From Allorhodopirellula solitaria (GTDB lineage: Bacteria; Planctomycetota; Planctomycetia; Pirellulales; Pirellulaceae), in the NCBI RefSeq assembly GCF_007859855.1, contig NZ_SJPK01000010.1:1-64000 (forward strand): a stretch of DNA of 64,000 nt. The letters are read 5' to 3'. A program made the position numbers and the translations under genes. Under the pieces are notes generated by a model. The model was not told where the DNA came from. It did not search any database and saw only the letters and a list, made by a program, of their open reading frames with translations. Shown piece by piece: positions 4,662 to 64,000 of this stretch. Within the stretch, counting starts at the first letter, position 1. The number at the start of each line of letters is the position of its first letter.

Positions 4662-7604
4662 ATGATGGATTTCGGAAAACGACTGTCTTGGCGTCTCAGC
4701 GGCGGCGTCGCCGCTGTCGCGATGGGAGCCCTCGCTGCTGCTCAAGCCCAGTGGCAAGACCTGCCGCCCGAGACCGATTCGCCACAGCAACAAGCGTCCA
4801 TCGCCGATTCGCTTCCGCTTCCCATTGCTGCCGACGAAGGCCCAACCTCGCCCGTCCAGCCCGCTAACTTTCTGGCCGCTATCCCACCGACTGATTCCCA
4901 GAACAGTCCCGCGGGATTTGCCGCTGAACAGTCACAGCCCGGCCTCGATGACGCCCCCCCCGAAACCTTTGTCGCCCAAGTTGCTCATGAGGAACCTGTT
5001 CAAGGTTTCGATGACGCCCCCCCCGAGGACGCCGCTGATGGTCCGGCTACGGAGGCATCAATGTCACTGCCGGCACCAGGATTCGGCCCAGCCGGCATGA
5101 TGGGTCTCCCCAGCGAGACGACGGATCCCGATCAGGCGACCGGCCCAGAATCCAGCCCGACCGGCAACGAAGGCCCCGCCATGGCGATGTCCTACATGGG
5201 GTTGCCCGAAACCGATGCTGGACCACCACCCGCTCCAGCGGATTCCGCACCGCCGGAACAAGGATTCGCAATGGAACAGGTTCCTGAGATGGGACAGGCT
5301 CCTGAGATGGGACAGGACAGTCCGATCGCACAGTCCCCCGAGATGTCCGAGACCGGGTCGCTGCCGGAGATCCAGTTTGAGCAGGGACCGATGATGATGG
5401 ATTCAGCGCCAGCCGCTGGCGAAGCACCATCCGCTGGCGAAGCTCCGTCGATGATGGCAATGCCCCCGCCCCAGACACGTTCAGCTACCAGTGCTGGACC
5501 CACCATGGGCGTTCCCGCCCCGGGCCCCGACGCGGCACCGATGAACGCGATGCCCGAGATGGCATCCATGTCAGCCGCCGCGCCCATGCATGAGACTCCC
5601 CCCATGGATGATTCCGGGCCCATGAACGGCCCAGGACCTGTCCACAGCGCAGGCCCAATGCACAGCGCAGGCCCAATGCACGACGCAGGCCCAAGGAACG
5701 CGATGGGAGCGATGGCTGGCCCCGTCGATGAAGCGGGCCCTATGTACGGAAGCGCCCCAGCACCGTCGGCCGGTCAAGAAACACCGGCCATGCAGGGCTA
5801 TGCGGGCCCGGCCAACAGCGGCCCCAGTGAATCCTTTGGCAACAACTCGCTGAGACAGCCCGCGGCCATGGAGAACCAACTGCGTTCCGCCCCCGTCGCC
5901 GCGACGGCAGGACCGAATCAGCCCTCGGAACCGGCACTGCCCGAGTTGCCCCAACCGACACAGTACTCCAGTGGTCCCGCTGGCGGCATGTCTGGATACG
6001 ATCCTGCGAACACCCAGGCCTCTGCTGCGGCTGCGCCAGACTCTTATGCCTCCAGCCCGGCCATGAGCGGCCTCGGCGCGCCGGCCGCTCAAACCCCAGC
6101 TCAATTCGCTGGGCACCAGCGGGAGGGCAACCCAGCGATGGGCATGCCGGGGCGACCGGGCAGCGGAACACCTCAGGATCAGTATTTGGCAGCCGGTGAC
6201 GATCCCGTCTCGATTAATTTGCCGGGCGATCGCAAACTCGAAGGCGTGCAAACGCCGAGCATTGTCATCCACAAACGGGCTCCTGCGGAAGTCAAGGTCG
6301 GCCAGCCCGCCACGTTTGTGATCCAGGTCCGCAACACTGGTACTTCCGAAGCTCTCGGCGTGCTCGTTCACGACCGTGTCCCGGCAGGCATGGAACTCGT
6401 CGATGCAACCCCGGCCCCAACCATGCAAGGCGATCTGCTCGTCTGGCAACTCGGCGCGATGCCCGCTGGCGACGAACGCTCGATCACGATGCAACTGGTC
6501 CCGCAAGAGGAAGGTGAACTCGGCAGTGTCGCCCGGGTCACTTTCGAAGCCGCCGCATCGGTGCGAACACGATCCACCCGCCCCGAACTCAAAATCACTC
6601 AACGGGCGCCGCAAAAGGTGCTCATCGGACAACAACTCGAGATTGAACTGGAAGTGGCCAACGTCGGCACCGGCGCAGCGACGGGCGTGATCCTGCAGGC
6701 TGACGTGCCGCCAGGACTCGACCATCCCAATGGCCGACAACTCGACAACGCGATTGGATCCCTACGTCCGGGTGAAGTTCGTAAGGAAGTTCTGCGGATG
6801 CGTGCGGTAGAACCGGGCATGATCGAAAACGTCGTGCTGCTGACCTCCGAAGACGCCCAGCCTGCCAAACACTCCGTCAACGTGGAGGTCGTCTCGCCGA
6901 AATTGAAGGTGGCTGCCTCCGGCCCGAGTCGCCGGTTCCTCGAACGTCAGGCCACTTACGAGGTCAAGATCGAGAATCCTGGCACCGCATCGGCCCGCAA
7001 TGTCGAGGTGCTCGCTCGACTCGATCGCGGATTCACCTTCGTTAGCACCGAGAACAATGGCCAGTACGACGCCAACCTTCACGCTGTCCGCTGGTCGATC
7101 GTGGAACTGCCCGCTGGTGAAATCGCGTCGGTCCCACTCACGCTGCTACCCGTCGAAGCGGGTGACCAGGTCATCCGGATGGAAGCCTCCGCGGATCTCG
7201 ACACACGCAGCGAAAGCGAACATACCGTGGCTGTGGAATCCCAAGCCGAACTGAGCTTCAGCATCGCTGACACCGCCGACCCCATCGAACTCGGCAGCGA
7301 GACCACCTACGAGATCAAGGTCAAGAACGTGGGCTCGCGAAACGACACGAACGTGCAAGTTCAGTTGCTACTGCCGCCGGGCCTCGAGATGCTCGAAAGC
7401 GACTCCGACGCTGGCACCGACGGACGCGGTGGCGTGGTCTTCGCACCGCATGCCAACCTGCCTGCCGGCGGCGACTTGACGTATCGCATTCGTGTCCGTG
7501 GCGTGCAGCCCGACACGCACGTGATCAAGGCTGTTGTGACCAGCGAACAATCACGCGTGCCAGTGACCAAGGAAGAGAGCACGATGGTCTACGCCGACCA
7601 GTAG
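4662..7604 (+). CDS. Large surface protein with four DUF11 domains
   Basis: About 980 residues. A signal peptide (RLSWRLSGGVAAVAMGALAAAQAQ) leads into roughly 490 residues of low-complexity Met/Pro/Gly/Ala/Glu-rich sequence containing short tandem repeats (EMGQAPEMGQ, AGPMHSAGPMHSAGPMH, paired FDDAPPE motifs). From about residue 530 there are four consecutive DUF11 immunoglobulin-like domains, each opening with a VGQPATFVIQVRNTG-like strand pair; this fold is common in cell-surface and adhesin proteins. AAAGGA at 4647-4652 is well placed for the ATG at 4662 (or 4665) and too close to the ATG at 4653. Likely exported and envelope-associated. The low-complexity half is probably disordered and a target of repeat-length variation. 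Confidence 0.8.
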   Translation: MMDFGKRLSWRLSGGVAAVAMGALAAAQAQWQDLPPETDSPQQQASIADSLPLPIAADEGPTSPVQPANFLAAIPPTDSQNSPAGFAAEQSQPGLDDAPPETFVAQVAHEEPVQGFDDAPPEDAADGPATEASMSLPAPGFGPAGMMGLPSETTDPDQATGPESSPTGNEGPAMAMSYMGLPETDAGPPPAPADSAPPEQGFAMEQVPEMGQAPEMGQDSPIAQSPEMSETGSLPEIQFEQGPMMMDSAPAAGEAPSAGEAPSMMAMPPPQTRSATSAGPTMGVPAPGPDAAPMNAMPEMASMSAAAPMHETPPMDDSGPMNGPGPVHSAGPMHSAGPMHDAGPRNAMGAMAGPVDEAGPMYGSAPAPSAGQETPAMQGYAGPANSGPSESFGNNSLRQPAAMENQLRSAPVAATAGPNQPSEPALPELPQPTQYSSGPAGGMSGYDPANTQASAAAAPDSYASSPAMSGLGAPAAQTPAQFAGHQREGNPAMGMPGRPGSGTPQDQYLAAGDDPVSINLPGDRKLEGVQTPSIVIHKRAPAEVKVGQPATFVIQVRNTGTSEALGVLVHDRVPAGMELVDATPAPTMQGDLLVWQLGAMPAGDERSITMQLVPQEEGELGSVARVTFEAAASVRTRSTRPELKITQRAPQKVLIGQQLEIELEVANVGTGAATGVILQADVPPGLDHPNGRQLDNAIGSLRPGEVRKEVLRMRAVEPGMIENVVLLTSEDAQPAKHSVNVEVVSPKLKVAASGPSRRFLERQATYEVKIENPGTASARNVEVLARLDRGFTFVSTENNGQYDANLHAVRWSIVELPAGEIASVPLTLLPVEAGDQVIRMEASADLDTRSESEHTVAVESQAELSFSIADTADPIELGSETTYEIKVKNVGSRNDTNVQVQLLLPPGLEMLESDSDAGTDGRGGVVFAPHANLPAGGDLTYRIRVRGVQPDTHVIKAVVTSEQSRVPVTKEESTMVYADQ
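5643..5696 (+). repeat. In-frame 18-bp tandem repeat in the DUF11 gene
   Basis: Three units of 18 bp, the first two identical (CACAGCGCAGGCCCAATG) and the third degenerate, encoding SAGPMH. A second 18-bp pair occurs at 5279-5314. Unit length keeps the frame. Confidence 0.85.
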
Positions 7605-18489: not shown

Positions 18490-19761
18490 ATGTCAGCTCC
18501 CAAACCCGATTTCGACCAACTTCTCAGCGACCATCTTGACGGACGGCTCGATGAGACGGATGCGCAGTTGCTTCGGCAGCAGTTGCGCGACGATCCTGCG
18601 CTGCAATCTCAGTTGGAGGGGCTGCGTGCGGACCGAGAAAGTCTCCGCGCCCTGTTCGCTGCCGAGCGATCCGGGGGCTCGCGTTTGGGACGTGACTTTG
18701 CGTCCGGTGTGCTCGCCGAAAGTCGTCGCCGGGGAGTTTCGATGAGCGGGCGCCGCCAGTCGGATGAGGATGCTGCAGTCGAGCCGGCTCACGCGGTTCA
18801 AGACCGTGAGCAACCCGACGTCGCTTGGATCCGAAAACGAGCGCCCATGTTCATTGGCTGGCTGTCTGCGGCGGCAGCGGTGCTGTTGATTGTGTCGTGG
18901 AACATCCGTGAAAACGAGCCTGGAGATGCCATTCACACGGTCGCTCAGAACGATCCCGATGGTCACTCAAGTCCCAATGGTCACTCAAGTCCTGAGGGGC
19001 CGGTGGTCGCGCAGCCGGGAGAAGGTGTCGAGCCAGGCGACAGCGCCGAAGGATCCAGTCAGTCGCCGGCTACGGCGATTGCTTCCTCCGACAAGGAATC
19101 AGCGGCCGCCACCGCCGCAGCCCCCACGCCAGACGCGATCGTCTCCGATTCTTCGTCCGATCCGGTGATGGATCGTTCAGCGATGGCTTCGGTCGGCGAC
19201 GACACCGCTTTGCCGAGTGGTTCGCCGTTCACCGGAGCGATGATGGTGTACGAAGTGCGTTTGAGCCCGCGCGGCCGCCAGACGAATTTTTTGAGTGAAG
19301 CGATGCGAGAAGTTGGGTTGCAGGACGCGCAACGGTTGCCGGTCAATCGCGACGTCATCGCGGCGGCGAAGCAAGCGGACACGTTTGATGAAGATTCGCG
19401 ATTCCAGGTCCTCTATCTGCAGGCATCGGCAAGGAAAGTTGATCAACTGTTCTTGAAGCTGCGTCGTGACCCACAACAGGTTGAGGCAGTCGGGTTGTCA
19501 TTGGTCACCGACGCGCCGGTTTTGCAGATGGCAGGTGATTTGGCGAAGGTCGAAGCAACTGAGATCCAGCATGACGAGCCACTTAGCTTTGAATTGAACG
19601 ACAGCGAGAGTGAAGAGCTCGCGACTTTCCGCGAACTGCTGGGCGAGAAAGCGTTCTTGCCGCTGCCCTCGCCATCCTCGGGCGACGTGGACGTGCAACC
19701 CGAATCGCTTTCAAGCACGGGTAACGATGTCATGACGCGAGTCTTGATCTTGGTACGCTAA
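18490..19761 (+). CDS. Anti-sigma-factor-like membrane protein
   Basis: 423 residues. The N-terminal part (DFDQLLSDHLDGRLDETDAQLLRQQLRDDPALQSQLEGL) resembles the cytoplasmic region of planctomycete anti-sigma factors but lacks the HxxxCxxC zinc motif. A single membrane helix lies at residues 119-138 (MFIGWLSAAAAVLLIVSWNI), followed by a low-complexity Ser/Pro/Gly linker with an 18-bp tandem duplication (encoding GHSSPN/GHSSPE) and a C-terminal globular domain outside the membrane. No ECF sigma gene is adjacent, which leaves the role unproven. Confidence 0.65.
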   Translation: MSAPKPDFDQLLSDHLDGRLDETDAQLLRQQLRDDPALQSQLEGLRADRESLRALFAAERSGGSRLGRDFASGVLAESRRRGVSMSGRRQSDEDAAVEPAHAVQDREQPDVAWIRKRAPMFIGWLSAAAAVLLIVSWNIRENEPGDAIHTVAQNDPDGHSSPNGHSSPEGPVVAQPGEGVEPGDSAEGSSQSPATAIASSDKESAAATAAAPTPDAIVSDSSSDPVMDRSAMASVGDDTALPSGSPFTGAMMVYEVRLSPRGRQTNFLSEAMREVGLQDAQRLPVNRDVIAAAKQADTFDEDSRFQVLYLQASARKVDQLFLKLRRDPQQVEAVGLSLVTDAPVLQMAGDLAKVEATEIQHDEPLSFELNDSESEELATFRELLGEKAFLPLPSPSSGDVDVQPESLSSTGNDVMTRVLILVR

Positions 19762-36844: not shown

Positions 36845-38017
36845 TTAGTCTTCGTCCGTTTCCTCCTCGTCGGCGAGCTCAGGAAACTGGATTTCCCGTT
36901 CAATGCGCACGATCATCAACCGAATCATTCTCGCCTCGCGCTGGGTCACGGACAGTTCCTGCCGCAATCGATGCAGCCGCTTTTCGGGCGTCGAGCGAAA
37001 CAGACGGGCTGACACATCGAGTAGAACGAGGGCGCGAAACGCTCTCAAAACGGTTCCACGCAGCCGGTAGGCTCGCGCCAATTTCGTCAGCTGAGGCACT
37101 TTGGCCAGCTTCGCCAGCCGTGTTCCCCGGACTGCCTGGAGCGACCGCAGAAACGAGAAAAACGGTAGCACGATGATCGCTAAGTCGATCCAGTGACGGC
37201 GGAGATAGTCGAATTTTTTCTCCGCGATCGAGATCATTAAGATGAATTCCGCGGCGAATGCAAACCAAATCACGCCCGTCCCAATGTGCAGGGCAACCCG
37301 CAGCCAAGCATACCGAGCGACTTGGTCTTTCAGCAGAAACTCGACGACCAGTACCGGGACAATCAACATCGCGATCCCAATCATCGGGACGCTAAAGGAC
37401 TGCTCCAAACGCCTTCGCAATCGTCGGTCGGGACGCTGCCAAGACCATCTGGGCAGCCACAACCGATCCCCCATCTCGGCGCTCCGGGCACACATCCGAA
37501 GCGAGGGGCTGATGCAAAATATCAACGAATACGCGTGCATCGGCGCCGTGGCCCAGGTTTTCGGCCGAATCATCCAGTGGTAGACGGATTCGAGGAGAAC
37601 GATCGGCCAAATCAGACACATCGCGATCACCGCCGCCCCCTCCAACATCAACTGGGCCGGAGAGGTCGGACCGAGCAAGGCTCGGTGAAGCGTCTCGATT
37701 TGGTGCTGGTCGGGGTCGATCGATGGGGGGCTGGGGGAGGGGGTTGGGTTGGAGGGGGTGAGGGGGGCTTGCTCGCTGGGGGCGTGCTCGCGACGGGCGG
37801 AGTCGTCGGTCGACAATTCGCCGTCGGTCGCTGATGGGTTGGTGGGGTTAGTGGCTGCGGCCAGTGATTTTTCCCGCAGCGTGGGAACATCGACCCACAT
37901 CACGATCAATACGGCCTGGCAGACGAGGAACACGACCGCCAGCACAAACATTAGCGGAGCGGTCCAGATCGCGATGCGTCGATGCAGCATCGGCACGGGG
38001 TGTGATGCGTTATTCAC
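36845..38017 (-). CDS. Membrane protein with voltage-sensor-like helices
   Basis: 390 residues. One N-terminal membrane helix, a Pro/Ser-rich loop (about 60-100), two helices, then four helices resembling S1-S4 of ion channels, the last carrying regularly spaced basic residues (LQAVRGTRLAKLAKVPQLTKLARAYRLRGTVLRAFRALVLL). No pore helix or TxGYG filter follows; the C-terminus is a charged coiled coil ending EEETDED. Similar to ion-transport family fragments but not an obvious channel. Confidence 0.6.
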   Translation of the reverse strand: MNNASHPVPMLHRRIAIWTAPLMFVLAVVFLVCQAVLIVMWVDVPTLREKSLAAATNPTNPSATDGELSTDDSARREHAPSEQAPLTPSNPTPSPSPPSIDPDQHQIETLHRALLGPTSPAQLMLEGAAVIAMCLIWPIVLLESVYHWMIRPKTWATAPMHAYSLIFCISPSLRMCARSAEMGDRLWLPRWSWQRPDRRLRRRLEQSFSVPMIGIAMLIVPVLVVEFLLKDQVARYAWLRVALHIGTGVIWFAFAAEFILMISIAEKKFDYLRRHWIDLAIIVLPFFSFLRSLQAVRGTRLAKLAKVPQLTKLARAYRLRGTVLRAFRALVLLDVSARLFRSTPEKRLHRLRQELSVTQREARMIRLMIVRIEREIQFPELADEEETDED

Positions 38018-50463: not shown

Positions 50464-51465
50464 TCAGTTGACCTTGGCAAAAATCATCTTGCCAGCGTTC
50501 GTCTGCAACGTGCTCGTTACCCGAACGTCCAGTTCTTGGCCGATTTTATTGCGTCCGCCTTCGACCACGACCATGGTGCCGTCGTCCAGGTATCCAATCC
50601 CCTGTTCGGGGCCTTCACCAGGCTTGATGACCCGCAAGCGGAATGTTTCATCGGGCAAGAACACCGGTCGGAGCGAATTGCTGATCTCATTCAGATTGAT
50701 GACCGGCACGCCATGAACCTTGGCAACCTTGTTCAGGTTGAAATCGCCCGTCACCACCTTGCCTTCGAGATGCTTGGCTAATAGGACCAATTTCAAATCG
50801 ACCGTTTGCCCAGCGAGTTCGGGGAGCTCTCGATCAAATATTTGCAGATCCACATTCTCATCCGCTCGCAACCGATTGAGCACATCGAGCCCGCGGCGAC
50901 CACGCGTGCGACGCAACTTATCGCTGCTATCGGCGATCGCCTGTAACTCGCTCAAGGCAAACCGTGGCATGATCAATTGATTGTCAAACACCCCCGTCGC
51001 AACGAGATCCGCGATCCGACCATCAATCACCACGCTCGTATCCAGGATCAACGGTTTGAAACCCTTGACCTCGCGCACAAACTCGACATACGGAATGAGA
51101 AATCGAAAGTCATCCTTGGTCTGCAACAGCACCGAGGTGCAGAGGTAGCAGAGGCAAATCCCGATCAGCAAACGGGCATGATCGGCGCTGCCGAATTGCT
51201 CCAGCAGCGGAGCGGCCGCGATACTTAAAATGTACGTCAGCAACACACCGATCAAGACACCAAAATAGACCGATGTGATCGTGTCGATGCGTTTTCGAGG
51301 CAGATAGATATCGACCACGACCATGATCACGGCCACGCCCATGATGACGATGAAGTTCAGCCACGGCAAAACCGAAGGTCCACCGCTCGGCAGCGCGGAA
51401 TTGATGATTGCTGAAACGCCACCGGCGCACAACAAAAAGAACAGTCGAAGAACAATCAATGCCAT
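50464..51465 (-). CDS. PIN/TRAM domain membrane protein (YacL family)
   Basis: 333 residues. Four N-terminal membrane helices, then a PIN nuclease domain starting FKPLILDTSVVIDGRIADLVATG with further acidic residues (ELQAIADSSDKLRRTRGRRGLDVLNRL, VTGDFNLNKVA), and a C-terminal TRAM domain (EGPEQGIGYLDDGTMVVVEGGRNKIGQELDVRVTSTLQTNAG). Membrane-anchored putative ribonuclease of the YacL type. It precedes the GroES-like gene by 44 bp. Confidence 0.92.
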   Translation of the reverse strand: MALIVLRLFFLLCAGGVSAIINSALPSGGPSVLPWLNFIVIMGVAVIMVVVDIYLPRKRIDTITSVYFGVLIGVLLTYILSIAAAPLLEQFGSADHARLLIGICLCYLCTSVLLQTKDDFRFLIPYVEFVREVKGFKPLILDTSVVIDGRIADLVATGVFDNQLIMPRFALSELQAIADSSDKLRRTRGRRGLDVLNRLRADENVDLQIFDRELPELAGQTVDLKLVLLAKHLEGKVVTGDFNLNKVAKVHGVPVINLNEISNSLRPVFLPDETFRLRVIKPGEGPEQGIGYLDDGTMVVVEGGRNKIGQELDVRVTSTLQTNAGKMIFAKVN

Positions 51466-56408: not shown

Positions 56409-58859
56409 CTATTTCGTCTTGGCCTTGCCGTTCGCCGAAGCATTGCCGCCCGCCGAAGCTTTGCCGTTGGCTTGGGCCTTGCCGTTGGCTTGAGATTTAC
56501 CGTTGACCTGGACGGTGGCAACACGGCTGGTCCGTTCAGCCGAGGCTGACTTGGAAGTGGGCCGCGTGTAGTCGCTGCGGTAGTAACCGTAGTAGCCGCC
56601 GTCGGCATCAAAGGCTTTCGCTGCGCCGTAGGTATTGAGCATGCAGCCGACAAAATTGCCCCCGGCGGTTTCGACGCGGCGAAGCGTATTGACGACTTCG
56701 TCACGACGTACCTTGGAGACTCGGACGACGAGGATTGCGCCGTCGAGGCGAGGCAGCACCACGACGGGGTCCGACACTGCCAACACGGGTGGCAGGTCAA
56801 CGAGCACAAAATCGAACTGGGATCGCGCGGTCGCGAGTACCTCGTCGAGCTCTTCGGACTGCAAGAACTCGGCGGGCGAAGTGCTCGACGATCCGGCTGG
56901 CATCACGTGCACATTGTCGACCTTGGTCTCTTTGACGGCTTCGTTAAAATCGATGCGTCCTTCGAGCAGATCGCACAAGCCGTTCTCTTTGCTGAGGTTA
57001 AAGAAACGGTGGGCACTTGGGCGTCGCAGGTCGGCATCGATAATCAGAATTTTCAAGCCGATTTGCGAGAAGGAGACGGCGAAGTTCGAAACGACCGTAG
57101 ACTTCCCATCACCCTGCATGGGGCTGGTGAATCCGATCGTTCGCAACGCACCGCTGCGGATTTCGGGCAACAGCATTGTACGTCCGAGCCGGAAGGCTTC
57201 GGCGTCGGGTGATTCGCCGGTGGCGATCAAGCCAGAGACCCCCTTCTTGATCGACTCCAGTTTCCCGACACGTCCGAGGCTGGTCAAACCAATGGCTTCA
57301 TCGAGTTCTGCCGCGGAGCGGAAGCGACCATCACGCAGATCATTGGCAACGGCAAGGAAGAGGCCGGAGAACAACCCCAGCATCAGGCCACCGAGTCCGC
57401 AGAGCGAAAGTTTCGGCCACGATTTTTCACCGCGACGTGGGACTTCGAGAAACTCGTACAGATAGCCGCTCAAACCGCTCGCGGTATCGAGATCTCGTAA
57501 CTGCTGCACGATGCCTTCGAACAACGCTTCTTGGCGAGTGATCTTTTTCTGCAGCACCATGTCGGTGAGCTCATACTCGATCAATTCCTTCGCCTTGCGT
57601 TCGGCATCGGCAGCGAGGAACGTCAGTTCCTTGCGCCGCTCGGTCAGTGTCGCGAGGTCATGGTTAAGAAATCCGACATAGGCTTTGAGCAATCCCTCGG
57701 GATTCAATGCAGTGTCGGTAAACGCCATCGCTGGGTTGGTGAGTTCCTGCTTGTCCTGCAGGAACTCTTTGACGAGATCAATCTGGTTCTGAATCTCGAG
57801 AACCTTGGGGTGAGCGGCACCGAAGATGGACGACAAACGCCGTTTCTCACTATTGAGTTCGAGCAGGTGGGTGATCTGTGTGTGCGCTTCTTCCACCTTG
57901 GCAGGCATCGCTGCTTTAAACTCGGCCGTGTTCGAAGCGTTCATCTGAAGACCGGCGAAGACACCGAGACGCTCGAGACTCTCGCTATCGATCAACGCGA
58001 GCTTATCGAGGTGGTCGACAGGATTGTCCGATCCATCCATCTCCTTGAGTGTGGCGTCGACGCGTTGCAACCGCGTGCGGACGGTGGACTCCTTGATGTC
58101 CAGATCGAGCAGTTCTTCTTGGATGCGGCGGTAGCGGTCCTGGTAGACGTTGCTGCTGCCTTCGCCTTGGAAGAAGAGCGGTGCACTCTGGCGGGACTTC
58201 ATGTGCTCTTGTTCGGCAGCGACCAAATCCGCTTCAATGTCCTGCTTGGCCTCGTTAACCATTTCGTTGGCACGGCCCATCAGCTGTTCGACCTGGGCGA
58301 TGATAAACTGCTCATATCGCTTCATGACCGCCGTCAGGATCAACTGAGCGTCATCGGGATCCGTATGGGTCATCGTTACCCGGAGGCTACGAGCTGCCTT
58401 CGCGGAACCTTCGCCACCCTTGGAGATCGAAATATGCTCCACGACGTAGTCCGTGGCATCAAACCCAGGACGCTCCTGATTGAGATGTGTCGTGATCGAC
58501 GGCAATTCAGACAGCTCGTTTTGCTCGAGAGCCTCGCCCACGATCATGCGGCTTTTGATTAACTGGATGTGGTTAGCGAGGATGTCTTCCTCCACCATCT
58601 CCTGGCCGGTGCCGTCGGAATCCAGCCCCGCGCTCTTTTGATTGATCAGTACCGTCGCGCTGGACTGATACCAAACGGGAGCGTAAAGGGAATATGCGAC
58701 GCCCGCGGTCAGTCCGCAGATGCACAGGAACAGAATGATCCAGCGTTGGCGTTGGAGGATCTGCAGGACATCCAACGAATCAGCCTGATCGTCGTCCGAT
58801 TTCGGGCGCGTCAAGGCTTGGATCCGATTCTTGGGTTCGTTGGGTTCTGCCATAATCAT
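56409..58859 (-). CDS. Polysaccharide co-polymerase / tyrosine autokinase (Wzc-like)
   Basis: 816 residues. N-terminal Wzz-type domain with first membrane helix (RWIILFLCICGLTAGVAYSLYAPVWYQSSATVLI), a long periplasmic coiled coil, a second helix (LSLCGLGGLMLGLFSGLFLAVANDL), then the BY-kinase domain with Walker A SPMQGDGKST near residue 585, Walker A' LIIDADLRRPSAHRFF and Walker B FVLVDLPPVL. The tail has a tyrosine cluster (GGYYGYYRSDY), the usual autophosphorylation site, and ends in a Gly/Lys/Asn/Ala repeat (QANGKAQANGKA). Controls exopolysaccharide chain length and export. No wza or glycosyltransferase genes are adjacent. Confidence 0.92.
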   Translation of the reverse strand: MIMAEPNEPKNRIQALTRPKSDDDQADSLDVLQILQRQRWIILFLCICGLTAGVAYSLYAPVWYQSSATVLINQKSAGLDSDGTGQEMVEEDILANHIQLIKSRMIVGEALEQNELSELPSITTHLNQERPGFDATDYVVEHISISKGGEGSAKAARSLRVTMTHTDPDDAQLILTAVMKRYEQFIIAQVEQLMGRANEMVNEAKQDIEADLVAAEQEHMKSRQSAPLFFQGEGSSNVYQDRYRRIQEELLDLDIKESTVRTRLQRVDATLKEMDGSDNPVDHLDKLALIDSESLERLGVFAGLQMNASNTAEFKAAMPAKVEEAHTQITHLLELNSEKRRLSSIFGAAHPKVLEIQNQIDLVKEFLQDKQELTNPAMAFTDTALNPEGLLKAYVGFLNHDLATLTERRKELTFLAADAERKAKELIEYELTDMVLQKKITRQEALFEGIVQQLRDLDTASGLSGYLYEFLEVPRRGEKSWPKLSLCGLGGLMLGLFSGLFLAVANDLRDGRFRSAAELDEAIGLTSLGRVGKLESIKKGVSGLIATGESPDAEAFRLGRTMLLPEIRSGALRTIGFTSPMQGDGKSTVVSNFAVSFSQIGLKILIIDADLRRPSAHRFFNLSKENGLCDLLEGRIDFNEAVKETKVDNVHVMPAGSSSTSPAEFLQSEELDEVLATARSQFDFVLVDLPPVLAVSDPVVVLPRLDGAILVVRVSKVRRDEVVNTLRRVETAGGNFVGCMLNTYGAAKAFDADGGYYGYYRSDYTRPTSKSASAERTSRVATVQVNGKSQANGKAQANGKASAGGNASANGKAKTK

Positions 58860-59347: not shown

Positions 59348-61339
59348 TTATCCACAGGGCTCGAGCGGCAATTGGCTGGCGATCTCGGCCCACCGCGTCA
59401 GCAACCGCTCTGCCGCCCTGGTATCCAAAAGTCCACTGGGTGAGCGATTGGAGATTGCGATACGCCCCTCGAACTCCCAGACCGTGAGAGAGAGTTGACC
59501 TCCCGCCTGAACGGGCCCCTCGAAAAAAACATCCTCAAGCGTGGCGCCGGCGACCCAGAGGGCGGCCCCGTCGCGGCGGACGCCAAACCGTTTTCCTAGT
59601 CGCAGGCCCGCTACGCTTGTTAATGCCGCCGTCGGCGTGAAGGTTCCCCAGCTCTCCATCAGAGACAGACACCCCGGGATTCGCTCGGCAATCGCGATTC
59701 CGCTCGCCATTTCATGGGCAGTTCCATACCGGCGAACATTCTGCATCTGCTCACTGACCGAGGCCAATGTGTCCGAAAAACGATGAAGTTGGCCGACGGT
59801 TCGTCGCACGAAAGCGATTCCGATGTGATTTTGGGTGTCGTGGCGTTGCTCCCACGTTCGCGTTTCGACTGGGTTCATGATCATGACATGGCGGCGCGGG
59901 GATATCGCCGCGTCGGAAATGGTCGCCAATGCATGCAACGTCACGGCGACGGCCCAATCGTTCAGATTGACATGACGTGCAAGCAGCGATGCGCGAATGC
60001 GGTCGCTCAGCGATCGCGAGAACATCAATCGCAGCTGACCTTGGAAGCTCGCCAAGGTGCTATCGGCACCCAGCACCGCGGCGTGAGCGCCAGCTGATTC
60101 AATACTCGGACCAACGACAGGGCGCTTCGGCAATCGGGCATTGCTCCCGCGAACCGTCGCCCACAGATTCCGCAAATCGGGAAGTGCAGTGTAGCCAGAC
60201 GGCTCCGACCGTCTGGGCTGACCATCGACCTCAGACCCACTCGACGAGCCGCCCTGGGTATCCGGCGCCCGTTCTCCCGACGGGCGGAGCCGTCGGTCGA
60301 CTTTGTAGCCAGACGGCTCCGACCGTCTGGGCTGGCCGTCGACCTCAGACTCACTCGGCGAGCCGTCCTGGGTATCCGGCGCCCGTTCTCCCGACGGGCA
60401 GAGCCGTCGGTCGACTTTGTAGCCAGACGGCTCCGACCGTCTGAGCTGGCCGTCGACCTCAGACTCACTCGGCGAGCCGTCCTGGGTATCCGGCGCCCGC
60501 TCTCCCGACGGGCGGAGCCGTCGGTCGACTTTGTAGCCAGACGGCTCCGACCGTCTGAGCTGGCCGTCGACCTCAGACTCACTCGGCGAGCCGTCCTGGG
60601 TATCCGGCGCCCGTTCTCCCGACGGGCAGAGCCGTCGGTCGACTTTGTAGCCAGACGGCTCCGACCGTCTGGGCTGACCATCGACCTCTGACCCACTCGA
60701 CGAGCCGTCCTGGGTATCCGGCGCCCGTTCTCCCGACGGGCAGAGCCGTCGGTCGACTTTGTAGCCAGACGGCTCCGACCGTCTGGGCTGGCCGTCGACC
60801 TCAGACCCACTCGGCGAACCGTCCTGGGTATCCGGCGCCCGGTCTCCCGACGGGCGGAGCCGTCGGTCGACTATGCCCCCGCACAGCTGGGCATAGGCAT
60901 GGAAAATTTGTCCAGTCAATCGGATGGCACCGACCCCGTCGCAACACGCATGATGGAACAGGATACGAACGGACCAATTTTGTTGGTCGAGGGACTGCAC
61001 GACACAGCGCCCCCCCATGCCCTGACGGGGACGCACGCATTCAGCATCATCTACTTCGGCTGCGACATCGGCAGCGAGCGTGCGGTAAACGAACGATTCC
61101 TCCCTTGCCCGCTCTTGCCGCTCCCATCGCTGGCCCTGCCCACGCCCGACGAGCTGGGCATACATACGCGGGTGTTCCTGCAGATGCTCGAACCAGACCT
61201 CCCGAAGAGATTCGATCTCAACGTTTCCCTTGAGCACGACCGTGAGGCTGAACACCATGCCGCTGCCATGACTGGGTCGCGCCAGGTAGCGTTCCATGAC
61301 GGTCGTGGGAAGAAACGACTGAGAGAGGGGGAGAGCCAT
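59348..61339 (-). CDS. Condensation/WS-DGAT-type acyltransferase carrying a repeat array
   Basis: 663 residues. The fold is that of HHxxxDG acyltransferases: N-terminal SQSFLPTTVMERYLARPSHGSGMVFSLTVVLKGNV, catalytic HHACCDG at 129-135, and C-terminal half (LNDWAVAVTLHALATISDA, RRHVMIMNPVETR, HIGIAFVRRTV). Without the insert it is about 435 residues, normal for the family. Residues 157-384 are six copies of a 38-residue unit, Arg/Ser/Pro/Asp-rich and surely unstructured, placed just after the first subdomain's helix. Probably esterifies or transfers the acyl product of the upstream PKS. Third gene of the operon, 126 bp after the reductase gene. Confidence 0.8.
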   Translation of the reverse strand: MALPLSQSFLPTTVMERYLARPSHGSGMVFSLTVVLKGNVEIESLREVWFEHLQEHPRMYAQLVGRGQGQRWERQERAREESFVYRTLAADVAAEVDDAECVRPRQGMGGRCVVQSLDQQNWSVRILFHHACCDGVGAIRLTGQIFHAYAQLCGGIVDRRLRPSGDRAPDTQDGSPSGSEVDGQPRRSEPSGYKVDRRLCPSGERAPDTQDGSSSGSEVDGQPRRSEPSGYKVDRRLCPSGERAPDTQDGSPSESEVDGQLRRSEPSGYKVDRRLRPSGERAPDTQDGSPSESEVDGQLRRSEPSGYKVDRRLCPSGERAPDTQDGSPSESEVDGQPRRSEPSGYKVDRRLRPSGERAPDTQGGSSSGSEVDGQPRRSEPSGYTALPDLRNLWATVRGSNARLPKRPVVGPSIESAGAHAAVLGADSTLASFQGQLRLMFSRSLSDRIRASLLARHVNLNDWAVAVTLHALATISDAAISPRRHVMIMNPVETRTWEQRHDTQNHIGIAFVRRTVGQLHRFSDTLASVSEQMQNVRRYGTAHEMASGIAIAERIPGCLSLMESWGTFTPTAALTSVAGLRLGKRFGVRRDGAALWVAGATLEDVFFEGPVQAGGQLSLTVWEFEGRIAISNRSPSGLLDTRAAERLLTRWAEIASQLPLEPCG
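60191..60873 (-). repeat. Tandem array, 6 units of 114 bp, in frame
   Basis: Unit starts (plus coordinates) at 60191, 60305, 60419, 60533, 60647 and 60761. Each unit encodes VDRRL(R/C)PSGERAPDTQD, a variable middle, then RRSEPSGYK: 38 residues. Each holds two hairpins, AGACGG-CTCCGA-CCGTCT and CCGACGG-GCGGAG-CCGTCGG (loop GCAGAG in three units). Stems are identical in all units. Confidence 0.95.
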
Positions 61340-61465: not shown

Positions 61466-62248
61466 TCACACGCGAATGCTCACTCCGCCATCGACAACGA
61501 TCGTTTGCCCTTGGATCAGATCACTATCGGAACTGCACAGAAACGCCACGACTTTGGCAACATCATGTTGGGCCAGCTTTCGTTCACCGAGCATCATTCG
61601 TTCACTGGCCGCTTTAACGAGGTTATCGGAATCCGGCATGCTGGCGATCGCATCAGTGGCGATAATCCCAGGGAGGACGCAGTTAAAATTGATACCGTCG
61701 TCGCCAAGTTCGAGAGCGAGATGGCGAATCAAACTTTCCAAGGCGGCTTTCGACGCCCCGATCGCACCGTAATGGGGAACCGACCAGCGAGAGCCGTGGC
61801 TACTCACAGCGACAACCTTGCCGTTTTCCGGGCCCGCACCGAGCGCCACCGCCGCAGCCTGAGCCAACCAGATGACTGGGGACGCGTTCGTTCGGAGCAC
61901 GGCTTCGAAGTTAACAGGAGTCAGATCGGCTAAGGCTCGGAACCCGCCCGCCGCCGCGTTGCTGACAACGATATCGAGTCCGCCGAAGCGAGATTGAACC
62001 TCGTCGACCATCGAATGGACATCTTCGCATCGCGACACGTCCGCTTTCACCAGCATCACGTCGGCATCGGCCGCCTTTCGCTCTGCGATCTGCTTGGCGA
62101 CCTCGACAGCTTTTTCTTGCGAATTCAGAAAGTTGACTGCGACACTTGCGCCACGAGCAGCCAATTCCAGCGCGATCTCGCGCCCAATCCCTCGACTCGC
62201 TCCGCTCACGAGAGCTCGCTTTCCCTTCAGATCTTGATTCATTTTCAT
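61466..62248 (-). CDS. Enoyl-ACP reductase III-like SDR (FabL type)
   Basis: 260 residues. SDR start KRALVSGASRGIGREIALELAARG, NAAAGG motif, and SSHGSRWSVPHYGAIGASKAALESLIRHLALEL, where the spaced Tyr and Lys follow the FabL pattern (YxxxxxxK-like, with GxSKAALE) rather than a plain ketoreductase; the C-terminus IQGQTIVVDGGVSIRV is also FabL-like. Likely reduces the enoyl product of the upstream KR-DH protein. The ATG (MKMNQD) overlaps the PKS stop as ATGA, so they are translationally coupled. Confidence 0.88.
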   Translation of the reverse strand: MKMNQDLKGKRALVSGASRGIGREIALELAARGASVAVNFLNSQEKAVEVAKQIAERKAADADVMLVKADVSRCEDVHSMVDEVQSRFGGLDIVVSNAAAGGFRALADLTPVNFEAVLRTNASPVIWLAQAAAVALGAGPENGKVVAVSSHGSRWSVPHYGAIGASKAALESLIRHLALELGDDGINFNCVLPGIIATDAIASMPDSDNLVKAASERMMLGERKLAQHDVAKVVAFLCSSDSDLIQGQTIVVDGGVSIRV

Positions 62249-64000
62249 CCCAACCATCCAATTTGATAACCGACGAGTTCCAAGATGCAGTCGCCATTGA
62301 GCCCCATTAGGCTGGCTCGGAGCGTGGCACCGTTTTCATCGTCACTCTCGCAGTCCACGATCACTCGGAGCGGTTCCCCCGGCACGGGCAAGCGGCCGAT
62401 TTTGATCGTGTCGAATGAGATCGGCAGACTCGGTCGGCCGCCGACACGGTAGGCCAACATCCCCGCGGCATAGAGCACCGCGTCCATCGCGGCGGGCGAA
62501 ATCACCCATCCTCGCAGCGGTCGATTCTCACCTGCGAGATGCGAGGGACTGGGCGTGACAATCACCCCCATGGCAGTTCGCCCATCGGCGGTGAAGCCGA
62601 GTTCTCGCAGACATTGGAACTGCGGTCCGTGGTAAACGGGAGCGTCGATGGATTGATAGTGGACCACATTGTAGTCAGACGGCTCAGACCGTCTGGACTC
62701 TCCATCAGCCGCTACTTCTCGCGACGGGCGGAGCCGTCGGTCGACATTGTAGTCAGACGGCTCCGACCGTCTGGACTCTCCATCAGCCGCCACTTCTCGC
62801 GACGGGCGGAGCCGTCGGTCGACATTGTAGTCAGACGGCTCCGACCGTCTGGACTCTCCATCGGCCGATACTTCTCGCGACGGGCGGAGCCGTCGGTCGA
62901 CATTGTAGTCAGACGGCTCCGACCGTCTGGACTCTACATCGGCCGCTACCTCTCGCGACGGGCGGAGCCGTCGGTCGACTTTGTAGTCAGACGGCTCCGA
63001 CCGTCTGGACTCTCCATCGGCCGCTACCTCTCGCGACGGGCGGAGCCGTCGGTCGACATTGTAGTCAGACGGCTCCGACCGTCTGGACTCATCATCAGCC
63101 GCCACTTCTCGCGACGGGCGGAGCCGTCGGTCGACATTGTAGTCAGACGGCTCCGACCGTCTGGACTCGCCATCGGCCGCTACTTCTCGCGACGGGCGGA
63201 GCCGTCGGTCGACATTGTAGTCAGACGGCTCCGACCGTCTGGACTCATCATCGGCCGCTACTTCTCGCGACGGGCGGAGCCGTCGGTCGACATTTTCTCC
63301 CAATTCGATGGTGGCACTGAAGTGTGGCCGCGAGGCTTCGACGAGACGTCCGTCGCGGCGTCGCAGGTCGCTGACGAGCGTCCATCGCTGGTGCGATGGC
63401 GAGGTGCTCTCCGGTGCAGCACCCTGCGCATTCACTGGCAGGAGTTCCACGGAGATGGGATCCGACGTCAGGCATTTCAGGGGACGATGGGCCTGCACGT
63501 CGTGCAATGCGATGACACCTCGGTTGGTTCCGGCTCGAGCAGCTTCGGCGAGCATCTCAATGGCGATCACGAACGGCAAGGTGGGACGTCCTTGCACCAA
63601 GTGCTCGCTCAAGAATCGATCGCTGGTAGGGTCAAGCGTGACGTTATGCGAGGCGAAGGACGCAGAGTCTTGCCATTGACTTCGGTCGCCTTCGGGATCG
63701 AGCATCGGTAGCGGCAGGCCGATTTCGCAACGATCGGAACGCCTCGAAAGCTCACTATCGCAGGAACACGTCTCCTCGCCTTCGGGAAAGAACTTCCGGA
63801 CGTATCTCCGGTCCGTAATCAGGACTTCCGTCGCATCGCCGCCACACTCGATCTCGTTAAGGAAGTGTTGCAGGCCCTCATGGGCGGGCATGAAATCCAT
63901 GCCGATCATGTCGAGGGCTAGTTTCGCCTCGGGTTTCGTGGCCATGCCGATGTCACCCCAAGCATGCCAATGAAACGTGACGCAGTGGGTATCGGGACGT
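62245..64000 (-). CDS. Type I PKS/fatty-acid synthase, KR-DH C-terminal part (5' end outside window)
   Basis: The frame stays open to the right window edge, so only the C-terminal about 585 residues are seen. Upstream of an internal Met at 63945 it reads FHWHAWGDIGMA, then LGMDFMPAHEGLQHFL-like sequence, the end of a PKS ketoreductase. Then a double-hotdog dehydratase: catalytic His in HLVQGRPTLP (HxxxGxxxxP), YHGPQF in the second hotdog and Asp in SPAAMDAVLYA. Residues numbered from the Met at 63945: His115, array 219-426, Asp488. The array, eight 26-residue units, sits exactly in the linker between the two hotdogs. Stop overlaps the reductase start. Confidence 0.87.
   Translation of the reverse strand, partial: RPDTHCVTFHWHAWGDIGMATKPEAKLALDMIGMDFMPAHEGLQHFLNEIECGGDATEVLITDRRYVRKFFPEGEETCSCDSELSRRSDRCEIGLPLPMLDPEGDRSQWQDSASFASHNVTLDPTSDRFLSEHLVQGRPTLPFVIAIEMLAEAARAGTNRGVIALHDVQAHRPLKCLTSDPISVELLPVNAQGAAPESTSPSHQRWTLVSDLRRRDGRLVEASRPHFSATIELGENVDRRLRPSREVAADDESRRSEPSDYNVDRRLRPSREVAADGESRRSEPSDYNVDRRLRPSREVAADDESRRSEPSDYNVDRRLRPSREVAADGESRRSEPSDYKVDRRLRPSREVAADVESRRSEPSDYNVDRRLRPSREVSADGESRRSEPSDYNVDRRLRPSREVAADGESRRSEPSDYNVDRRLRPSREVAADGESRRSEPSDYNVVHYQSIDAPVYHGPQFQCLRELGFTADGRTAMGVIVTPSPSHLAGENRPLRGWVISPAAMDAVLYAAGMLAYRVGGRPSLPISFDTIKIGRLPVPGEPLRVIVDCESDDENGATLRASLMGLNGDCILELVGYQIGWLG
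62671..63294 (-). repeat. Tandem array, 8 units of 78 bp, in frame
   Basis: Unit starts (plus coordinates) 62671, 62749, 62827, 62905, 62983, 63061, 63139 and 63217. Each unit encodes VDRRLRPSREVAAD, one or two variable residues, ESRRSEPSDYN: 26 residues. Hairpins AGACGG-CTCCGA-CCGTCT (loop CTCAGA in the first unit) and CGACGG-GCGGAG-CCGTCG occur in every unit. Confidence 0.95.

Follow-up and report, generated by a model that had tools for sequence, protein, structure and literature searches.

The locus and its repeat arrays

The window analysed here, i.e. the whole stretch of 64,000 nucleotides at positions 1 to 64,000 of contig NZ_SJPK01000010.1 from Allorhodopirellula solitaria (assembly GCF_007859855.1), closes with the 3' part of a PKS-type gene, the dehydratase (DH) domain of which carries eight 78-bp units (8 × 78 = 624 bp, 208 codons) in frame (Table 1). 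That these units lie between the two hotdogs of the domain had been proposed in an initial annotation, and the TRF call (62666–63294, period 78, 8.1 copies, 96% matches, 0% indels), the unit table and the Pfam matches all agree with it. With the unit boundaries set from the first palindrome, the units descend from 63291 to 62668, no two of the eight being identical. The reading frame runs without a stop over 584 amino acids in the window and over 3,248 amino acids in the genome. From the motifs of its upstream part, we read the gene as encoding also a ketosynthase, an acyltransferase, two ACP and a KR.

The array fills the gap downstream of the motif HLVQGRPTLP and ahead of YHGPQF. The H, G and P of the DH motif and the D of the second hotdog—which we take to be the catalytic D of the DH—are kept both in the host protein and in its relative from Neorhodopirellula pilleata Pla100 (66% identity), and they are invariant over 12 orthologue rows (11 distinct), in accordance with the earlier statement that both halves retain their catalytic motifs. 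The array had also been described as interrupting the domain; the two hotdogs are, however, separate folded halves, so that it represents a linker insertion breaking no fold. A profile search of the PDB with the DH retrieved three DH domains (5hqw, 8qk4 and 3kg6), confirming the fold family only, and the AlphaFold2 model, based on a two-row alignment, was too poor for use (mean pLDDT 42.9, pTM 0.28), the array appearing in it without predicted secondary structure.

The gene next but one to the PKS-type gene, acyltransferase-like by its motif, has a related array of 114-bp units, situated in frame in its central linker and left unconnected with the DH array in the initial annotation. It contains both palindromes of the DH array with a few single-base differences, the spacer and the joint being different. 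A third intragenic copy in the window, a single palindrome half, is found near the N-terminal hydrophobic stretch of a probable membrane protein. The window also contains short 18-bp tandem repeats in two to three copies, at 5271–5694, 18954–18992, 51315–51349 and 56425–56505.

Table 1 Features of the window discussed in the text
Feature	Position	Strand	Basis and remarks
Single half A, 1 mismatch, in frame as STDDSARRE	37791..37814	-	in 390-aa ORF without Pfam match
HHACCDG-motif acyltransferase-like gene, host of the 114-bp array	59348..61339	-	weak TIGR02946 match, 31.6 bits, cut-off 309.95
Related array, six 114-bp units (228 codons)	60188..60871	-	TRF, unit table
SDR-type reductase gene, array-free, between both array-bearing genes	61466..62257	-	
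Host PKS-type gene, 3' end (runs on past the window)	62245..64000	-	open frame, translation
DH second hotdog (PS-DH, residues 447–579 of P0001)	62263..62661	-	Pfam; coordinates converted from residues
DH array, REPIN-like units in the inter-hotdog linker	62668..63291	-	TRF, unit table, translation
DH first hotdog (PKS_DH_N, residues 121–185 of P0001)	63445..63639	-	Pfam; coordinates converted from residues

Anatomy of the unit

In each unit of the DH array, half A GTCGACCGACGGCTCYGCCCGTCG and half B CAGACGGTCGGAGCCGTCTGRCTAC are separated by a 26-nt spacer, and a 3-nt joint completes the unit. Both halves are, by sequence, imperfect palindromes, half B resembling the reverse complement of half A at 15 of the 18 central positions. 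The order A–spacer–B, with the REPs inverted and their tags facing outward, is that of a REPIN. Concerning the foot tags, half B read in reverse starts with GTAG, whereas the GTCG at the start of half A would be compatible with the GTMG variant of PMC3733652. Self-folding of the consensus unit beats that of shuffled sequences (z of -2.46 as DNA and -2.51 as RNA), 3 of 200 shuffles being equally good.

Across the loci, the spacer measures from 23 to about 155 nt and differs from one locus to another, a CGAG start and an AGCT end being frequent, while the joint between units is A/T-rich and mostly 3 nt long. In all 17 surveyed arrays having four or more units of equal length, each array entered once, variation is greater in the spacer than in the palindrome cores; in terms of variable columns the comparison is 117/718 for spacers versus 53/833 for cores, yet duplicated units do not provide independent columns and the weight is therefore put on the 17 arrays rather than on the column totals. 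The units had previously been described as nearly identical; this holds for the palindromes, which are uniform, but not for the spacers, which vary.

A palindrome family spread over the genome

Allowing up to three mismatches, half A has 298 and half B 233 matches in the A. solitaria genome (G000; G002, G007, G009 and G010 below are congeners, and L numbers denote loci). Both reversed controls gave 0 matches, which for half A excludes chance. A survey of arrays covering 42 sources—the window and 41 further stretches—yielded at least 359 matches in at least 55 clusters, among them at least 32 arrays of three or more units. Outside the curated coding set are 26 of these 32 surveyed arrays. Among the matches listed, the period of the regular arrays ranges from 33 to 191 bp and their unit number reaches at least 11, and some arrays consist of half A only or half B only. 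At L071:1374–2873 (G000:C3), copies of half A alternate in orientation within a composite array, the steps being 52 and 247 bp and in one case 280 bp. The DH array is thus no speciality of a PKS dehydratase, as which it had originally been presented, but belongs to a REP family with many arrays throughout the genome; three of these arrays, that of the DH included, are read in frame in genes for which homologues were compared.

Another GTAG palindrome, GTAGGGCCGGTTCCYACCGGCC, has 134 matches in the same genome (e.g. L163:3185 and 4328, L159:8131 and L167:2185–2864) and represents a second family, which flanks one Y1_Tnp gene on both sides. Since this family, too, has regularly spaced dimer arrays among the matches listed, tandem growth is not peculiar to one REP family.

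In-frame arrays in other genes

The third homologue-checked gene encodes TrpE, the anthranilate synthase component I (L072:1112–3133, G000:C3). Its array, 4 × 45 bp of half A in frame (L072:1957–2115), corresponds to residues 281–334, between the domains Anth_synt_I_N (127–268) and Chorismate_bind (402–655). No second TrpE was found in the A. solitaria genome at E 1e-80, and the array-bearing one is therefore probably the working copy. As judged from the alignments, each of the in-frame arrays of the DH, the acyltransferase-like gene and TrpE occupies a variable linker. The arrays at L048, L079 and L082 are likewise situated within long open frames, each flanked by a Pfam domain on a single side; that of L079 may lie ahead of the true start.

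Orthologues and history of the sites

The DH array is present in none of the 11 aligned orthologue loci, which cover nine of the 12 congeners and two genomes of other genera (L144 was left out of the count, being identical to L091 over the DH stretch). In these loci the inter-hotdog linker is 120–153 nt long; in the three other congeners there was no DH match at E 1e-15. The alignment to array-free homologues suggested in the initial annotation thus showed this array in none of the aligned homologues and supports the lineage-specific expansion put forward there. The DH of N. pilleata is identical to that of G010. The array of the acyltransferase-like gene is absent from the homologues in the three of the 12 congeners in which the gene is present. 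The TrpE array is absent from all 12 congeners, 11 by alignment and one by adjoining search pieces: L154 (G002), represented by a wrong ORF, was left out of the alignment, and its two search pieces overlap, leaving no space for an array.

Half A itself has a narrow distribution. Among the 13 genomes of the genus, it has 298 matches in A. solitaria, 21 in G007 and 0 in the other 11; in 104 more distant genomes there was one match each in four, at three mismatches, the reversed control being higher (17 single matches). In the DH linker of G007 there is one A-like copy, agreeing at 22 of 30 positions and having the orientation and frame of the array, the score of half A in the other ten DH loci being 14–17 of 30. 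Similarly, the TrpE linker of G007 has one A-like copy with 24/30 at the site and in the frame of the array, with 13–18 of 30 in the linkers of ten other congeners. No null window reaches these values (0/966 for 22 and 0/1,036 for 24), although the windows overlap and the fractions are not exact probabilities. In both linkers half A alone was detected, and the acyltransferase linker of G007 shows no remnant (half A 15/30).

The DH and TrpE loci thus line up, from the sequences compared, as a series of an empty site, a single decayed copy and an array, the acyltransferase-like gene being without the middle step. One palindrome probably entered the DH site before the split from G007, in which case insertion and expansion would be two events. 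The expansion had been considered recent; it is indeed lineage-specific, but the insertion is probably older than that split.

Reading frames and selection

The palindrome frame VDRRLRPS is common to the DH, the acyltransferase-like gene and L082, whereas TrpE uses the frame STDGSARRE and the arrays of L048 and L079 are on the opposite strand. Frames and strands differing between the genes, no single peptide is being kept. In the DH array, six of the eight variable columns are third codon positions, with nine synonymous and five non-synonymous changes, and this bias hints at some constraint at the protein level. The acyltransferase array is without such a bias (seven synonymous and 13 non-synonymous changes), and, the changes in duplicated units being moreover non-independent, the codon-position test was dropped as a proof of selection on the protein.

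It should be pointed out that the period is divisible by three in all six curated coding arrays versus seven of 26 others (p = 0.002), a comparison that is partly circular as the class was chosen partly by the open frame; for the DH, the acyltransferase-like gene and TrpE the coding class rests on homologues. Frame-shifting steps, 0/23 in the curated coding arrays and 20/137 elsewhere, are not decisive (p = 0.08). In comparison with G007, pN is well below pS on either side of the array in all three homologue-checked genes (pN/pS of 0.211/0.670 and 0.160/0.667 for the two DH flanks), most of this divergence being older than the expansion.

The RAYT-like gene and the question of the mover

No cognate RAYT recognizable by its adjacency was found at the 16 Y1_Tnp loci of the A. 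solitaria genome: the REP of the DH array is near none of them (within about 1.5 kb, up to seven mismatches), the GTAGGGCCGGTTCCYACCGGCC family being found there instead. In the congener G002, three Y1_Tnp matches of identical score follow each other in tandem about 1 kb apart (G002:C1:6437942–6440280).

There is, in addition, a divergent multicopy RAYT-like gene, scoring 36.7 bits with the NCBIfam model REP_Tyr_transpos (cut-off 80) and giving weak matches only in a PDB search with its ORF (best E 0.17). In A. solitaria, five copies of it, the query included, are at least 88% identical, and in four of these (L166, L167, L168 and L170) a B–A pair of the DH-array family lies inside the reading region, twice in L168; the fifth, L169, is without the 206-bp stretch that contains the pair. 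The pair sits in a variable inter-domain linker. The A. solitaria copies are truncated or contain stops, while those of G010 have 380–400 amino acids. Two G007 copies (L196 and L207), the frames of which are intact over 417 and 447 codons, each have a single degenerate half A, read in frame, in the corresponding linker; at this place the copies of G010, G002 and G009 gave no match to half A. The linker of the RAYT-like gene reads, once again, as single in G007 and as a pair or tandem pair in A. solitaria. The palindrome pair may mark the mover, or it may be a tolerated linker insertion carried along as the gene multiplied.

Origin of the DH array

Based on the above results, the DH array is very probably a tandemly amplified REPIN, its 26-residue peptide being a by-product. 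The linker between the hotdogs would have received a REP in a common ancestor of A. solitaria and G007, as suggested by the single decayed copy in the latter. The unit would then have been multiplied in tandem in the A. solitaria lineage, probably by slippage or unequal recombination aided by hairpins. The array could persist because its palindromes are free of stops in the DH frame, its unit length is divisible by three and its site is a linker of variable length, which the enzyme presumably tolerates. The observed uniformity of the palindrome cores may be due to selection or conversion acting on the DNA element. Against this reading count the missing remnant in the acyltransferase linker of G007, the presence of half A alone in its DH and TrpE linkers, the lack of the REP near any of the 16 Y1_Tnp loci, the GTCG foot of half A and the third-position bias of the DH array.

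The opposite order of causes, i.e. an Arg/Ser/Glu-rich 26-residue peptide functional as a docking element, scaffold or flexible spacer and amplified for that function, would account for the frame held across eight units, for the third-position bias of the DH array and for the frame shared by the DH, the acyltransferase-like gene and L082. It is nevertheless quite improbable in view of the different TrpE frame, the opposite strand at L048 and L079, the prevalence of surveyed arrays outside the curated coding set, the unbiased acyltransferase array and the absence of the repeat from the aligned DH loci. Highly improbable, too, is a hypermutable in-frame switch, a contingency locus at which frequent changes of the unit number would alter the enzyme activity: the units are in tandem and predicted to fold into hairpins, their number differs from gene to gene and their growth is lineage-specific, but units that are multiples of three are unable to turn a gene off, and the unit numbers compared come from one genome per species. 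A more far-reaching version of the REPIN reading, doubtful at present, sees REPINs as a general linker-growing agent that enters inter-domain joints of enzymes in any open frame and expands there to as many as 228 residues, with the unit number tuning the spacing of the catalytic halves (in the DH didomain and in TrpE) and the RAYT-like gene as the mover.

The least probable reading is an ordinary minisatellite, produced on the spot by slippage of the linker sequence itself with no mobile element involved; the locus-specific spacers do mean that tandem duplication necessarily took place on the spot, so that such a process may hold for the multiplication step, but for the palindromes it is refuted, both of them recurring at many unlinked loci and being absent from 11 of the 12 congeners. 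An assembly artefact or a decaying pseudogene is extremely improbable as well. The genome consists of 62 contigs, and an assembly from short reads, if such it is, could have miscounted the units, whereas an artefact, the alternative named in the initial annotation, is unlikely since all eight units differ; decay of the gene is at odds with the uninterrupted frame of 3,248 amino acids and with the low pN on both flanks, even if most of that divergence precedes the expansion.

If the amplified-REPIN reading is right, the loci offer a readable history of a selfish palindrome turning into protein, from an empty site through one decayed copy to an array, with position and frame shared in two genes. 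They open to test the tolerance of enzymes to 60 to 228 added linker residues, the drift of the unit number in culture and the uniformity of palindromes amid diverging spacers. They are also a warning that a tandem repeat in a protein from such a genome can be a DNA parasite rather than a domain.

Comparison with known systems

The GTAG-tagged REPs (Di Nocera et al. 2013, PMC3733652), as far as the portions compared go, are short tagged palindromes occurring as dimers and as dimer clusters in tandem with flanking DNA, some of them within ORFs, where the authors suggest that insertion into flexible linkers was neutral; R. baltica is named there as harbouring several REP families. The A. solitaria family shares with them the hairpin-capable palindrome and the high dispersed copy number, but the ORF clusters given in those portions have 43 to 82 amino acids versus 208 and 228 in the present arrays. 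The REPINs (Bertels and Rainey 2011, PMC3116915) are, like the A. solitaria units, inverted REP pairs with a hairpin, and they form ordered tandem clusters of near-identical members. The largest such cluster in the portions compared comprises four REPINs and one REP and the counts are extragenic, while A. solitaria has at least 11 units and arrays in frame; unlike the REPIN systems described there, no adjacent RAYT was found for its family at the 16 Y1_Tnp loci.

Rickettsia palindromic elements (RPE), as summarized in the portions of PMC3733652 compared, are palindromic DNA in frame in many protein genes, the likeness being the mode of insertion, which is seen here in the DH, the acyltransferase-like gene and TrpE, all with putative product functions. 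They belong to another lineage, and the A. solitaria insert has been multiplied into long tandem arrays. The prokaryotic satellites (PMC6749651), among which R. baltica is tabulated, also form long-unit tandem arrays with coding periods divisible by three; in the portions compared, only L. interrogans and M. conradii are named as having genome-spread families of non-coding satellites, whereas in A. solitaria the arrays at many loci are seeded by a single palindrome pair.

Among the open-licence papers listed, none deals with the A. solitaria palindrome family, nor with REP arrays inside the gene of a PKS dehydratase or of TrpE. REPs within genes, their clustering in tandem and their neutral insertion into linkers have been published before, and the arrays of A. 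solitaria are an extreme case of such intragenic REPs. What is new with respect to the compared portions of these papers are the lengths of 208 and 228 codons and the series of empty, single and array states at one site and in one frame.
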